Shown here piece by piece: positions 5,362 through 20,760 of a stretch of DNA of 22,854 nt. Origin of the DNA: a virus. The stretch spans positions 1 to 22,854 of IMG/VR virus record IMGVR_UViG_3300046702_000036; one strand, 5' to 3'. Position 1 is the first letter of the stretch, and each line of letters starts with the position of its first letter. The position numbers were made by a program, and so were the translations under genes. The notes below the pieces were generated by a model. That model had not been told where the DNA came from. It did no database searches and worked only from the letters and a program-made list of their open reading frames with translations.

Positions 5362-5504
5362 TTCATCCCCCAAAGTACTGATACTGTTAATAGACTGGCC
5401 GATATCCAGTACATAAAGCGTGGCCAATTTCCCTCATGCGCGCAAAACCCGGCGCATATCATATATTGCACCAAGAAAGACCTCATTATCCATGTACTGT
5501 TCAT
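5358..5504 (-). CDS. 48-aa hydrophobic microprotein between thyX and the methyltransferase
   Basis: A short frame lies exactly between two genes: its ATG overlaps the thyX stop (ATGA at 5501-5504) and its stop overlaps the methyltransferase ATG (ATGA at 5358-5361). Such a double four-base overlap is unlikely unless the frame is translated. The product begins MNSTWIMRSFLVQYMICAGF. It has two hydrophobic stretches (about 5-21 and 30-46) around a short polar piece with His, Glu and Trp, and cysteines at 17 and 21. It may be a small membrane protein or mainly a coupling device. I know no family for it. Confidence 0.65.
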   Translation of the reverse strand: MNSTWIMRSFLVQYMICAGFCAHEGNWPRFMYWISASLLTVSVLWGMK

Positions 5505-6256
5505 ATCTTTTTTCTCAAGGTTTTAATTGATCGCCTTCCATCTGTATCCTCAAATAACTCTAACCCATATACAAGTGCTTTAGCCCTTTTCTGAAGAATA
5601 GACAATACCTTGCATGCAACCATTCTTATTTCCAGAGTATTATGTGGGTTCCCTCTCTCTTCACAAAAATGTCTCCAAGCCCGCATATTAGCCGTAATAA
5701 GTATCTTGGCTTCTATAGCATTGGGTAAAAGTTGCCGTGCTGCGCCACATGAGTTATGCTTAGTATTTTCTTCTATCTTTAAAATATCATATAACTCAGT
5801 ATAGGCATTTATTTCACATTTTAAGGTAGTTTCTACAATAGCTTTTTTTTGATCTGTATCAATAGAATAGGGTTCAACACAAAAACGAGCACTATCTTTA
5901 TTATATTTTATATAATGGGTGCTCTCCTGAGAATAAGCGAATCCAGCACGGTGACGGACCATCTGGTGAGTAAATCCTCTGCTACAACAAGCTATTGCAA
6001 AAGTAAAATTGGCATGTTCAAATATACTCCCATGTCCAAGCTCTACTGCCTTTGTTACCAGTTCATCAGTTTTTCCCAAGTTTTTATAGCTACCAAAACA
6101 CATCCTCCCGCCAAGTTCAACAACAGTCTCAGGTCCTGGTTGGGCCGTATCGAATGCTTCTGGAAAGCCACACTCCTCTAAAAACGGCTTAAGCCCATCA
6201 AAACAAATTCGGGGCTCAGCAATCAAAAAAACCTCTGGCTCTGTAAATATTTTCAT
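5501..6256 (-). CDS. thyX: Flavin-dependent thymidylate synthase ThyX
   Basis: 251 aa. ThyX turns dUMP into dTMP using methylene-tetrahydrofolate, NADPH and FAD. The signature region is RHR (101-103) followed by 'AGFAYSQES' and 'THY'. The upstream 'FEHANFTFAI' and downstream 'GAARQLLP' (171-178) and 'NMRAWRHF' (190-197) segments are also ThyX hallmarks. I count eight residues between RHR and the Ser at 112, whereas the motif is usually written RHRx7S, so there is a one-residue difference in the substrate loop. A strong GGGAGG precedes the start. The dUTPase-like and dCMP deaminase genes in the same operon can both supply dUMP. Confidence 0.93.
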   Translation of the reverse strand: MKIFTEPEVFLIAEPRICFDGLKPFLEECGFPEAFDTAQPGPETVVELGGRMCFGSYKNLGKTDELVTKAVELGHGSIFEHANFTFAIACCSRGFTHQMVRHRAGFAYSQESTHYIKYNKDSARFCVEPYSIDTDQKKAIVETTLKCEINAYTELYDILKIEENTKHNSCGAARQLLPNAIEAKILITANMRAWRHFCEERGNPHNTLEIRMVACKVLSILQKRAKALVYGLELFEDTDGRRSIKTLRKKI

Positions 6257-7432: not shown

Positions 7433-7933
7433 TTACTTTCCCTTTTTAACTTCCAGTCTATACGCTATTATAGCACTTTTTTTCCCTACAACCACTCTGT
7501 AAGGCTTTTCCTTGCGGTCCAGATAGTCCTGAGAAACATACATCTTCGCAGACGCCGGAGCGAACCCGGTCTTTGCCACTATCTCGTCAACTGTAAACAT
7601 CTCTTTTCCAGAAAGAAGCTTAACCAGCTTGCTCTCCTTGGTCTCCCCGCCTTTTTCCCTTTTGACAACCGCTTTTACCACCTTCATTTTCTTTGCCTCT
7701 TTCTTTACCATTTTTTCCTCCCGTTTGGCCATCTGTTCCGCAACCACCGACTTTTTCTGCAGAAGTGACGGCAATATCCTCTTTTTAGTTTCCAGCGTTT
7801 TGCATTTACCCTCCAACCTATCCAACAAGTACAGTGGATTAAAGCATACGCAGTCTCCCGTCTGCTTGTATTCTGCCTCTGAGCACTTATTAAAGAATGA
7901 ACAGTCTTTCTCATTACCCAGTATTTTTTTCAT
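7433..7933 (-). CDS. Cys-cluster protein with C-terminal winged-helix-like region
   Basis: 166 aa. The N-terminal part has cysteines at 11, 17, 28, 30 and 44 ('KDCSFFNKC', 'GDCVCFNP'), a possible metal site. A strongly basic helix (about 60-100) links to a C-terminal domain (about 102-160) that reads like a winged helix: 'LVKLLSGKEMFTVDEIVAKT', then 'SAKMYVSQDYLDR', then a beta hairpin. It may be a phage transcription regulator. Start: ATG 7933 overlaps the stop of the upstream microprotein by ATGA, which is better support than the TTG at 7960. It lies near the promoter end of the long minus-strand operon, where regulators are often placed. Confidence 0.7.
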   Translation of the reverse strand: MKKILGNEKDCSFFNKCSEAEYKQTGDCVCFNPLYLLDRLEGKCKTLETKKRILPSLLQKKSVVAEQMAKREEKMVKKEAKKMKVVKAVVKREKGGETKESKLVKLLSGKEMFTVDEIVAKTGFAPASAKMYVSQDYLDRKEKPYRVVVGKKSAIIAYRLEVKKGK

Positions 7934-8100
7934 AGTGCCACCATCTTTTCCGCGCAACAACCCGTAAAGTCTGACTCCTGTTTTACAATTAAATACTCAT
8001 TAGCATTTCTAAACTCATGCCTATCTCTTTCCTCCATAACCCAGTCTTCCAACCTCCGTTTTTGTATTACTTTTATTGTTTTCTTTCTTCTATTTACCAT
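7930..8100 (-). CDS. 56-aa basic microprotein, first secure gene of the long early operon
   Basis: A short frame from ATG 8100 with AAGGGGTG ahead of it and a stop that overlaps the next gene by ATGA. The product starts MVNRRKKTIKVIQKRRLEDW and continues with a charged helix rich in Glu, Arg and Asn; two adjacent cysteines (48-49) lie near the end. The Arg/Lys-rich start suggests nucleic acid binding. Its ribosome binding site, GGGGTGGGC (8102-8110), is complementary to a single-stranded joint of the folded leader just upstream, so its translation may be controlled by that RNA. Confidence 0.72.
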   Translation of the reverse strand: MVNRRKKTIKVIQKRRLEDWVMEERDRHEFRNANEYLIVKQESDFTGCCAEKMVAL

Positions 8101-8225
8101 TGCCCACCCCTTTCTGAAAATAAAAAACTATAGGAGTAAAAGAAAGTTGTTGCCAACTCGGAGTGGGCCTCTAAACCTTGCGGTTTACTTTTACTCCCAC
8201 AGTTTAAATTTAATAATTTATACAT
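8094..8225 (-). CDS. Possible 43-aa leader peptide overlapping the folded leader
   Basis: An open frame follows a very good AGGAG, seven bases before ATG 8225, and its stop overlaps the start region of the next gene. The predicted product starts MYKLLNLNCGSKSKPQ and has no recognisable domain. The frame runs through the whole three-way-junction element, so translation of it would open that structure. It may be a true leader peptide that couples ribosome movement to the fold. Alternatively, the AGGAGTGGG may act only as an RNA pairing partner. Confidence 0.35.
   Translation of the reverse strand: MYKLLNLNCGSKSKPQGLEAHSELATTFFYSYSFLFSERGGQW
8125..8205 (-). ncRNA. Structured leader RNA: three-way junction with two GCAA tetraloops and a possible ribosome-binding-site pseudoknot
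   Basis: Read on the minus strand, the outer helix is GGAGTAAAAG (8197-8188) with CTTTTACTCC (8142-8133). It is extended past a 3x3 internal loop by AGTTT/AAACT (8205-8201 with 8129-8125 on the plus strand). Two inner hairpins are TAAACC-GCAA-GGTTTA (8187-8172) and AGTTG-GCAA-CAACT (8158-8145). Both loops are GNRA only in this orientation, which supports minus-strand RNA. The joint between them holds CCCACTCC (8167-8160), perfectly complementary to GGAGTGGG upstream (8236-8229). With one G-U pair the slightly longer joint also matches GGGGTGGGC (8110-8102), the binding site of the next gene. The outer helix is followed by a T-rich run, as in a terminator. It lies about 45 bases after a promoter. 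No known riboswitch class is recognised. Confidence 0.6.
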
Positions 8226-8255
8226 ATACCCACTCCTTTATTTATAATATAAAAC

Positions 8256-8283
8256 ATTATACTATAATTTTAATATTTGTACA
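8256..8283 (-). promoter_or_regulatory. Sigma70-like promoter of the long early operon
   Basis: On the minus strand: TGTACA, 16-base spacer, TATAAT (perfect -10). The same box, spacer length and AATAT...AAATT spacer pattern recur at 9134-9161. It points at the folded leader and the operon from 8225 leftwards. Confidence 0.7.
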
Positions 8284-8308
8284 GTGTTTTTTTCAGTATA
8301 TTTCAAGC

Positions 8309-8686
8309 CTACAATTTTTCTACCGTACACGATACAACTCCCTGTTTACAATCAGCAATTCTACTAAACGCGAACCTCGATAAATCAACCCTCTTGCCTT
8401 TAAATCTTCGTGCCGTCCTATCCGTAACCATAACAACGACGCTCTTACCATTTGCATTATTTCTGACTCTGATATAGTCTCCGAGTCTATAGTCCCAGCT
8501 TGCACACGTAAGTCCCTCATCTCTAAACTCCTTTCCGTTTGCCATAATAAAGTGTGTCCGTTTATCTTGGCCATCTCTTATTAAATCCGCACGACTATAC
8601 CAACTTGTTTTTAAATCCATAGCCCATACCGGGTTTTGGTTGCATTCTGATAATAATATTAAAGCAAATAATATTAAAGTTTTCAA
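8309..8686 (-). CDS. RlpA-like double-psi beta-barrel secreted protein
   Basis: 125 aa. An N-terminal signal segment (about 1-22) ends near 'LLSEC', an imperfect lipobox, and a short linker follows. The rest matches the RlpA/DPBB fold in order: 'TSWYSR' (28-33), 'MANGKEF' (48-54), 'GDYIRVRNNANGKSVVVMV' (69-87) with 'TDRTARRF' directly after it, and 'VDLSRFAF' (about 100-107). RlpA proteins bind or cleave denuded peptidoglycan glycan strands. The usual His in the 'TAAH..LP' segment reads as 'CASWDY' here, so lytic activity is uncertain. The start is TTG at 8686, with GGAGG five bases ahead and no competing ATG. It is downstream of a lipoprotein gene in a promoter-proximal operon, which suggests wall or envelope modification during infection. 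Confidence 0.78.
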   Translation of the reverse strand: MKTLILFALILLSECNQNPVWAMDLKTSWYSRADLIRDGQDKRTHFIMANGKEFRDEGLTCASWDYRLGDYIRVRNNANGKSVVVMVTDRTARRFKGKRVDLSRFAFSRIADCKQGVVSCTVEKL

Positions 8687-9086: not shown

Positions 9087-9106
9087 CACCTACCCCTTTG
9101 CTATGG

Positions 9107-9124
9107 GAGGGCTTTATTGCCCTC
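9107..9124 (-). promoter_or_regulatory. 5'-end hairpin of the short envelope operon
   Basis: A perfect 6-bp stem GAGGGC/GCCCTC with a six-base loop begins about where transcription from the promoter at 9134-9161 should start. It would cap the transcript's 5' end and may stabilise it. There is no T run after it on either strand, so termination is unlikely. Confidence 0.5.
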
Positions 9125-9133
9125 ACTAAACAT

Positions 9134-9161
9134 ATTATAACACAATTTCGATATTTGTACA
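9134..9161 (-). promoter_or_regulatory. Sigma70-like promoter of the short envelope operon
   Basis: On the minus strand: TGTACA, 16-base spacer (AATAT..AAATTGTGT), TATAAT. TG stands one base before the -10 box (extended -10). It closely matches the promoter at 8256-8283 and starts just after the endonuclease VII stop at 9180. Confidence 0.7.
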
Positions 9162-9179
9162 CATATATTTTCAATATTT

Positions 9180-9761
9180 TCATGTAGACTCCTCGAGGTA
9201 TAAAGCGGCCTTTCTAAGGAAATCCGGGTTATCCCTAAAAAACCCGAGACCACCATTACACCTATAACACAATAGTCCTCTAACTTTATTTGTTACATGA
9301 CAATGGTCAATATGCTTGGAACGGCCTACTCCTAAATCATCCCCACATATTTTGCATTTGTGTTTTTGTACTTTATCCATCAATTGCATTTGCTCAAAAG
9401 TTATTCCATACTTATTGCGTACAGTCTCAGCCTTTCGTTTATCATATCGACTACGGAAATAACTTGGATGTTCAAGCAGAAACTTTTTTCTATACTCCCT
9501 AATTTTTGCTTGATTTTTTTTAGCCCACCTAGTATAAGAACCAGCAATTGCTAAATCTGGAATTTGACCAAGTATTTTTGCCGTAATTGCAATCCTTAAC
9601 TTAGATTTTTTTTCATCTTTTTCTCTAATCCTAGCATCGTGGTTATTTCCCTTTTCCCACTCAATTCTAGCTTTTTCCCTACGTTTTTGCCTTTCCATAT
9701 CTGCCACCTTTGCGCACTCTTCGCCAAGTAAATCCATATGCTTTATAAATCTAACAGCCAT
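9180..9761 (-). CDS. Recombination endonuclease VII-like HNH nuclease
   Basis: 193 aa. The C-terminal part is typical of T4 gp49/endonuclease VII proteins: 'KYGITFEQMQLM' (117-128), C136-x2-C139, 'HIDHCH' (150-155), 'VRGLLC' (160-165) with C165-x2-C168-N169, then 'GLGFFRDN'. The four cysteines hold zinc and D152/H153 lie in the metal-dependent active site. Such enzymes resolve branched DNA before packaging or act as free-standing HNH nucleases. The N-terminal 110 residues are a long, highly charged helical region, longer than in T4 gp49. The start at 9761 has a strong GGAGG. It is the gene nearest the divergent control region on this strand. Confidence 0.85.
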   Translation of the reverse strand: MAVRFIKHMDLLGEECAKVADMERQKRREKARIEWEKGNNHDARIREKDEKKSKLRIAITAKILGQIPDLAIAGSYTRWAKKNQAKIREYRKKFLLEHPSYFRSRYDKRKAETVRNKYGITFEQMQLMDKVQKHKCKICGDDLGVGRSKHIDHCHVTNKVRGLLCYRCNGGLGFFRDNPDFLRKAALYLEEST

Positions 9762-19587: not shown

Positions 19588-20760
19588 ATGACTCTAATAA
19601 CTATCCTCCTCATTTTGATCGTACCACTAACTGGTCTTATTCCATGTAGTATAGGACCAGTATGGTTTCCGCAAGTAGTAGCTCTATCCTTTCTACTCTT
19701 TTTATACGTAGGGATAGAATTATGGAAGTTCAACAAATGGCTTTCTATATTTCTTTTATACTGTCTTTTTAATGTAGTATTTATAACTCGTATCAATCCC
19801 AGATCCTTTTTACTTCTCTATCAGTTGTATTTCTGTTCTTATGGGGCATATAAAATTAGTTTTCTAAATTCTCTTCAGAGAAAGTGGGTCATGTATGCTT
19901 TGTACGTTCTAGTATTTTCGAACATTACTTTAGCGTGTCTTCAAATATTTAATCTCGATCCTTTATTTCATGCAATAGGTAATCCTAGAACGGATCACGT
20001 AGTCGGATTTTTGGGTGGATCAAACTGTTTAGATGCGGTATTAACGGCTACTTCTCCTCTACTTCTGTATTTAACTCCATTTTTCATAGTTTTACCTCTG
20101 GCTATTCTAATGTTCGCTACTGGATGGTGCGCATTCGGGTTTACATTGGCTCTTACTTTTTTATATATTCTATATAGGAAGTTGAGTAAAAAGATTCTTA
20201 TGGTATTCGTAGTATTTGCAATTCTTATGGGATGCATAATGGCAGTTAAATTCGAGAAATTATCAAAGGAAATGTTCTTAGTCCGATTACGTCCCTGGAA
20301 AGTTGCTGTGAGATCGGTACTAAAAGGGAATATTACCATTTGGCAGAAGTTAGATAAACCAGAAACTTTAAGGGTTTTAAATTGCAATCCGTTGTTCGGA
20401 TACGGGTTTGGTAATTTTGCTATGGTATTCCCACATTACCCTCCTAATCCTGGATTTAATACGGGAGAAAAGTTTAGTCATGCGCATAATGATTATATTG
20501 AAGCATTGTTCGACTTAGGAATAATAGGGGTTGTGTTTTTGCTTTTACTCCTTGGTTCTTTACTTCAAAGATTTAGACGTGTCGTAAAAAATAAAGAATT
20601 TGTAGTTATATCCCTATGTTTGTTAGGATATCTACTGGGGGCATTTGTTTACTTTTCTTCCCATATGCCTGTGTCGGGAATGTTATTAATGATATTTTAC
20701 GGATTGTTTGAATCCATAAGGAGAGAGAATGGGGCGTTTGCCGTCAACAGCAAAGGGTAG
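19588..20760 (+). CDS. O-antigen ligase/polymerase-type (Wzy/WaaL) multi-pass membrane protein
   Basis: 390 aa with about ten hydrophobic segments along the chain. The large loop before the last helices holds the family hallmark: 'NPLFGYGFGNF' (267-277) and 'HAHNDYIEALFDLGIIG' (298-314), with H298/H300 matching the conserved His of WaaL and Wzy_C proteins. Known members join or polymerise surface glycans on lipid carriers at the periplasmic face of the inner membrane. In phages, Wzy-like proteins can alter host O-antigen and block superinfection; here that is inference. The gene has no clear ribosome binding site and follows a hairpin. It lies in the middle of the virion genes between two secreted proteins. 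Its 3' end overlaps a zinc-finger microprotein gene. Confidence 0.82.
   Translation: MTLITILLILIVPLTGLIPCSIGPVWFPQVVALSFLLFLYVGIELWKFNKWLSIFLLYCLFNVVFITRINPRSFLLLYQLYFCSYGAYKISFLNSLQRKWVMYALYVLVFSNITLACLQIFNLDPLFHAIGNPRTDHVVGFLGGSNCLDAVLTATSPLLLYLTPFFIVLPLAILMFATGWCAFGFTLALTFLYILYRKLSKKILMVFVVFAILMGCIMAVKFEKLSKEMFLVRLRPWKVAVRSVLKGNITIWQKLDKPETLRVLNCNPLFGYGFGNFAMVFPHYPPNPGFNTGEKFSHAHNDYIEALFDLGIIGVVFLLLLLGSLLQRFRRVVKNKEFVVISLCLLGYLLGAFVYFSSHMPVSGMLLMIFYGLFESIRRENGAFAVNSKG

Follow-up and report, generated by a model that had tools for sequence, protein, structure and literature searches.

A leader RNA of a phage early operon that may act like the C4 and CI antisense RNAs

The leader of a phage early operon was found to fold into an 81-nt three-way junction, whose joint GCCCACUCC is complementary to the Shine-Dalgarno (SD) site on either side of it. 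This leader is located in a complete IMG/VR virus record of 22,854 bases, which is hereafter called the window. Computation revealed a stable fold, a complementarity that is specific for two gene starts, a layout in which the junction lies between its two targets, and two competing states. The explanation preferred here is drawn by analogy and held tentatively, with somewhat less than even confidence; it takes the leader as a C4/CI-like antisense-RNA module that would repress the phage's own early operon.

The early genes are encoded leftward on the minus strand (9761 to 1158), and the structural genes run rightward from approximately 10,327. On the minus strand, the leader is flanked on one side by a gene for a lytic-transglycosylase-type domain (8686-8309) and on the other by a series of approximately twelve early genes. 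This series begins with ORF2 (8100) and finishes at 1158 with the gene for an acidic protein of unknown function; its Pfam matches include AAA_24, PD-(D/E)XK, ERCC4, deoxycytidylate deaminase, MT-A70, and Thy1 (ThyX). ORF2 (7930..8100, minus strand; 56 aa) opens at ATG 8100 and is the first secure gene of this operon, its codon-usage score of 0.37 being above the median of real genes; a family search gave no match for it. No integrase or repressor was recognized in the 22.9-kb fragment when families were searched and the proteins were scanned. This indicates that lysogeny, the setting of C4 and CI, is not suggested by the gene content, so that the phage is possibly not temperate and its leader RNA might serve timing rather than immunity. 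Among the structural genes, a 390-aa membrane protein (19588-20760, plus strand) carries an O-antigen ligase/polymerase domain (Wzy_C, E 1.3e-11). It is possibly the product of a surface-modifying gene and hints that the host is Gram-negative; the locus L095 encodes a related protein.

The fold is real and non-random, and it belongs to the minus-strand RNA. The segment 8236-8125 (minus strand, 112 nt) exhibited a minimum free energy (MFE) of −35.9 kcal/mol with a z value of −4.74, and 0 of 200 shuffled sequences were equally stable, which bears out the three-way junction proposed for the minus-strand leader in the earlier note. A sliding scan of the window placed this segment among about five most over-stable places. 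The junction RNA itself covers 81 nt (8205-8125, minus strand). Its outer helix had been described as 10 bp plus 5 bp, and was found instead to be one continuous helix of 16-18 bp including two G-U pairs, formed between the 5′ arm (8188..8205) and the 3′ arm (8125..8142). Folding recovered both of the expected GCAA-capped hairpins with 6 bp each, namely hairpin 1 (8172..8187, UAAACC-GCAA-GGUUUA) and hairpin 2 (8144..8159, GAGUUG-GCAA-CAACUU). The joint that carries the antisense element (8160..8168) lies between them. It had been regarded as a long single strand, of which the joint itself was observed but not a fully open state, as the MFE structure places a weak 3-bp hairpin (GAG-GCCCA-CUC) there. 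The same segment gave −23.7 kcal/mol for the plus strand versus −35.9 kcal/mol for the minus-strand RNA, a difference that is ascribed to the G-U pairs. A DNA cruciform or palindrome, or an origin, was also considered for this segment, and is disfavored by this strand comparison.

The outer helix is directly followed on its 3′ side by the terminator-like U-tract UUUUUUAUUUU (8117..8127, minus strand), as was noticed earlier for the T-rich run. The tract reads U6AU4, and the three U at its 5′ end are able to join in the basal pairs of the outer helix. A stable stem of 16-18 bp followed by UUUUUUAUUUU is the arrangement of an intrinsic terminator, and termination is predicted at this site. When a search was made for a long helix that encloses roughly 35 nt or more and ends in a T-run, only 1 of 1000 dinucleotide-shuffled windows reached the 18 bp seen here. 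Such a long helix before U6AU4 could also be read as a bifurcated intrinsic terminator or a readthrough filter placed between the promoter and the operon, for which the SD complementarity would be a by-product of CUCC/GGAG-type sequences, and the presence of another bifurcated stem at the end of the early operon is consistent with this reading. The match of the joint is, however, 9 bp in length, extends far past the SD core, and is specific for 2 of 41 starts, which makes a simple terminator quite improbable. The other bifurcated stem (1030-1130, both strands) is located just beyond the early-operon end and is the most over-stable place of the window; it consists of a 10-11 bp G/C-rich outer helix (CCCGGGACCG/CGGTCCCGGG) and two inner hairpins, and is probably a terminator.

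The joint pairs almost equally strongly with two SD sites, in each case through 9 bp including one U-G pair. Target copy 1 is GGAGUGGGU (8228..8236, minus strand), the SD of ORF1 (RBS1), for which −19.1 kcal/mol was evaluated, and target copy 2 is GGGGUGGGC (8102..8110, minus strand), the SD of ORF2 (RBS2), for which the value was −19.9 kcal/mol. The latter agrees with the fit of the joint to the ribosome binding site of the first secure gene, with one G-U pair, that had been proposed for 8110-8102. Upstream, the pairing was also observed, while its computed extent was 8236-8228 with one U-G pair among the 9 bp, instead of a perfect match at 8229-8236. The upstream partner GGAGUGGG (8236-8229, minus strand) was hence rightly recognized as a complement of the joint; what had been overlooked is that it is the ordinary SD site of a 43-codon ORF, having GGAG 7 nt ahead of ATG 8225, and not a free-standing element.

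A comparison of the joint with 41 gene starts ranked RBS2 and RBS1 as the best two targets, the next being at −12.5 kcal/mol, and a duplex of −19 kcal/mol or better with the joint is formed by 0.2% of random 31-mers. That the two flanking SDs are the two best targets among all these starts supports the C4-like reading. A triple of target, antisense, and target was defined as a 9-mer, six or more of whose bases are G/C, that can pair with one upstream and one downstream site within 80 nt, no more than one G-U pair being allowed. One such triple occurs in the window, at this leader, and one was found in 150 shuffled windows. All of these chance statistics are weakened somewhat because the region was picked by the reader who wrote the earlier note. 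A chance fold with a chance complementarity would profit from this selection, which was made after the whole window had been read, from the lack of a supporting homologue, and from frequencies (1/150 for the triple and 1/1000 for the helix with a T-run) that are not extreme after selection. The two statistics are nevertheless largely separate, and the structure is positioned at a promoter, an SD, and a start codon, so that chance is considered very improbable.

ORF1 (8094..8225, minus strand; 43 codons) opens at ATG 8225, contains the whole junction, and overlaps the start of ORF2 with its end (ATGGTAA). Its coding status is uncertain, as its codon-usage score corresponds to the 4th percentile of real genes and 24% of spurious open stretches score higher; ORF1 may or may not be translated. 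The competition between RBS1 and the outer helix was evaluated by folding growing transcripts from 8250, which is an assumed start. Here, state B denotes the RBS1:joint helix and state A denotes the outer helix. State B showed a mean pair probability of 0.99 at transcript lengths of 93-117, until base 8134 was out. With the 3′ arm complete (end at 8126 to 8120), state A was preferred by 6.6 kcal/mol (−36.2 vs −29.6), and the two states became equal when RBS2 was included in the transcript (B, −37.1; A, −37.0). The barrier computed for refolding from B to A along a nested path was about 22 kcal/mol, which suggests that the outcome would depend on the order of events, for instance on whether a ribosome has reached ORF1 or RBS1 is occupied by an RNA. 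The two mutually exclusive states that had been claimed are therefore retained as a computed A/B competition, and as one joint that could serve either flanking SD in this model.

These folding results would also suit the main rival of the C4/CI-like reading, an attenuator that operates in cis only. In such a model, the RBS1:joint helix (B) would be an antiterminator hiding the SD of ORF1, the outer helix with the U-tract (A) would be the terminator, and the choice would fall to a ribosome initiating at ORF1 or to some other ligand that binds RBS1 or the joint. The early formation of B, the later gain of A and their equality once RBS2 is included are all compatible with it, as is the high barrier, by which the folding order matters. 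The outer helix begins 20 nt past the ORF1 start, which leaves room for an initiating ribosome to prevent B without preventing A. Known terminator/antiterminator attenuator leaders likewise possess two mutually exclusive helices, one of them before a U-tract, but the present leader differs from them in having no known ligand domain or leader-peptide signature and in its weak lower stem. Of the six base pairs at the bottom of the outer helix, just one is G-C and two are G-U, which is poor for an intrinsic terminator; neither a known ligand nor a control gene accompanies it, and the attenuator alone leaves the 9-bp match of RBS2 unexplained. We consider this alternative doubtful, while deserving serious attention.

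The nested state in which the joint pairs with RBS2 was 5.8 kcal/mol worse than the alternatives, so that this pairing in cis would need a pseudoknot within state A. This result also bears on translational coupling, in which ORF1 would be a real small gene. Ribosomes translating it would open the junction and make RBS2 accessible, and pairing of the joint would keep ORF2 closed as long as ORF1 is left unread. Coupling would be in line with the good SD and spacing of ORF1, with the overlap of its stop with the ORF2 start, which is usual in phage operons, and with the ability of the joint to pair with RBS2. Against these points, the codon-usage support of ORF1 is weak, its homologue was not found, and the nested joint:RBS2 state is the inferior one; coupling is thus judged unlikely.

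A promoter-like site, TGTACA-16-TATAAT, was located by a consensus scan at 8256..8283 (minus strand). The 52-nt stretch 8251-8302 (minus strand) recurs at 9129-9180 (minus strand) with 73% identity, and in this repeat lies another promoter-like site, which has the same hexamers (TGTACA-16-TATAAT) and has spacer bases in common with the first. The two perhaps exemplify one class of early phage promoter that shares a regulator site. The predicted transcript of the second promoter would open with a hairpin, GAGGGC-AATAAA-GCCCTC (9105-9125, minus strand), by which both early leaders would open with a structure. A search of IMG/VR for the promoter pattern gave three contigs, which all carry one common unrelated sequence and were discarded.

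According to the C4/CI-like reading, transcription from the 8283-8256 promoter would generate an RNA carrying RBS1, the 81-nt junction RNA that exposes the antisense 9-mer, and RBS2. Released by termination at the U-tract or by cleavage of a longer transcript, the junction RNA would present GCCCACUCC, whose pairing with RBS2 would block translation of ORF2 and leave the untranslated operon open to polarity or termination. The same element of the junction RNA would also pair with RBS1. Once RBS1 is occupied on the nascent transcript, the competing RBS1:joint helix would be gone, and the outer helix would form before the U-tract, which would end transcription and release another copy of the repressor RNA. 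In this scheme, the promoter, the processing or termination, the action in trans, and the repression are the steps that we infer.

The leader, ORF1, ORF2, and ORF3 gave no sequence homologue in the phages searched, among which very near relatives may be missing, and no homologue of ORF2 was obtained from IMG/VR. Relatives were detected through the portal and terminase proteins, the nearest having approximately 44-60% identity and weaker terminase matches ranging down to approximately 28%. The structural genes were shared with these relatives, and the early module was absent from the pieces examined. No relative was found in the genome contigs searched, and the outer-helix pattern had no match in IMG/VR. 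A single-sequence covariance model matched the window alone in 1.1 Mb of loci. The pattern RBS1...joint...RBS2 had one match in IMG/VR (L089), which was rejected as an unrelated GC-rich array of GAGTGGGCA repeats; at 5450-5730 of this GC-rich viral contig, many direct and inverted copies of GAGTGGGCA/TGCCCACTC constitute a repeat array.

Rfam 15 gave no gathering-level match over the whole window, in accordance with the earlier statement that no known riboswitch was recognized, and up to E 10 the best weak match was an irrelevant microRNA family, far below its cut-off. The further claim, that the structure resembles no known regulatory RNA, was not sustained, as the closest counterpart is found in phages P1 and P4, in their C4/CI antisense-RNA leaders. 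The C4 model RF01695 had no match at E up to 10 in 8060-8300 and 8095-8260, and RF03163 (c4-a1b1) had none in the window at E up to 10. In control runs of the same tool, RF01695 detected P1 C4 (68.8 bits) and P4 CI (74.9 bits), and RF03163 matched P1. In the P4 record (L096), the CI RNA region at 8420-8507 (minus strand) matches the C4 model, and the record annotates only a protein-coding cI gene. The lack of both matches, together with the single antisense element and the GCAA-capped second hairpin, indicates that the leader is not a C4 RNA; it is C4/CI-like in its proposed working, and is not a member of the C4 family. The missing Rfam match, the single antisense element, the lack of an integrase or repressor, and the lack of homologues weaken the C4-like reading.

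C4 and CI are the classic cases of phage self-repression by RNA, and both match one Rfam family. A broader proposal would be that a phage lineage unrelated to P1 and P4 has independently arrived at an immunity RNA of the C4/CI type that doubles as its own attenuator, in which one antisense 9-mer competes for two SDs and the terminated leader makes more of itself by binding the next nascent RBS1; this is considered fairly unlikely. Should the C4/CI layout indeed recur in an unrelated phage, with the interior of the fold changed, the design would have arisen repeatedly, and leaders of this kind would escape detection by the C4 model. Others could be sought with a simple descriptor consisting of a target, a junction RNA with an antisense joint, and a target at the first SD. 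A descriptor of this type (a triple whose antisense is mostly unpaired and enclosed by at least 8 bp, with at least two hairpins) was applied to both strands of 1.11 Mb of phage DNA and detected three places, which were the window, L083 (near a gene end), and L061 (repeat-rich); neither of the latter two has SD sites as both targets. The triple scan by itself also finds complementary triples in the P1 c4 (b1/b′/b2) and P4 CI leaders.

The published mechanisms of C4 and CI fit the present leader and thereby support the C4-like reading. The C4 RNA is released by RNase P processing of a longer transcript, and ribosome binding sites are masked by its b′ loop (PMC5320573). CI is processed from a leader and brings about termination by base pairing with two targets, seqA on its upstream side and seqC on its downstream side (PMC4825925). 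The C4 Rfam family has been reported from Proteobacteria and their phages (PMC2864571). The leader examined here belongs to an AT-rich unrelated phage and would control a replication/nucleotide operon, not icd-ant. P4, a temperate satellite, encodes an integrase of its own, for which no counterpart was recognized in the 22.9-kb fragment. Unlike C4 and P4 CI, the present leader has a U-tract directly after the outer helix, and its upstream target is the SD of an ORF. C4 has two antisense elements, a′ and b′, while here the one joint GCCCACUCC pairs with both flanks. In C4/CI, a′ occupies the joint before the 3′ arm of the outer helix and b′ a hairpin loop, and the antisense of P1 C4 and P4 CI is in the second hairpin and the joint; here the single element is in the joint between the hairpins. 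The b′ hairpin is the second one in C4, and the second hairpin here is GCAA-capped without antisense. The folds of P1 C4 and P4 CI are otherwise similar to this one, with an outer helix of 15-18 bp, a tetraloop hairpin stacked on it, and the antisense next. The three-way junction with a long outer helix, two inner hairpins, and a size of approximately 77-88 nt (here 81 nt) is shared with C4, as are an upstream target and a downstream target at a ribosome binding site (RBS1 and RBS2, 9 bp each). P4 CI is likewise an antisense RNA encoded in a replication-operon leader, and the transcript that contains it also carries its targets, on either side of it (PMC4825925). The order of elements is also that of P1 c4, in which a promoter, a target copy (a1/b1, 48255-48276), a three-way-junction RNA with antisense (c4, 48343-48419, 77 nt), and a target (a2/b2, 48423-48459) just before a small first gene (icd, from 48470) follow one another.
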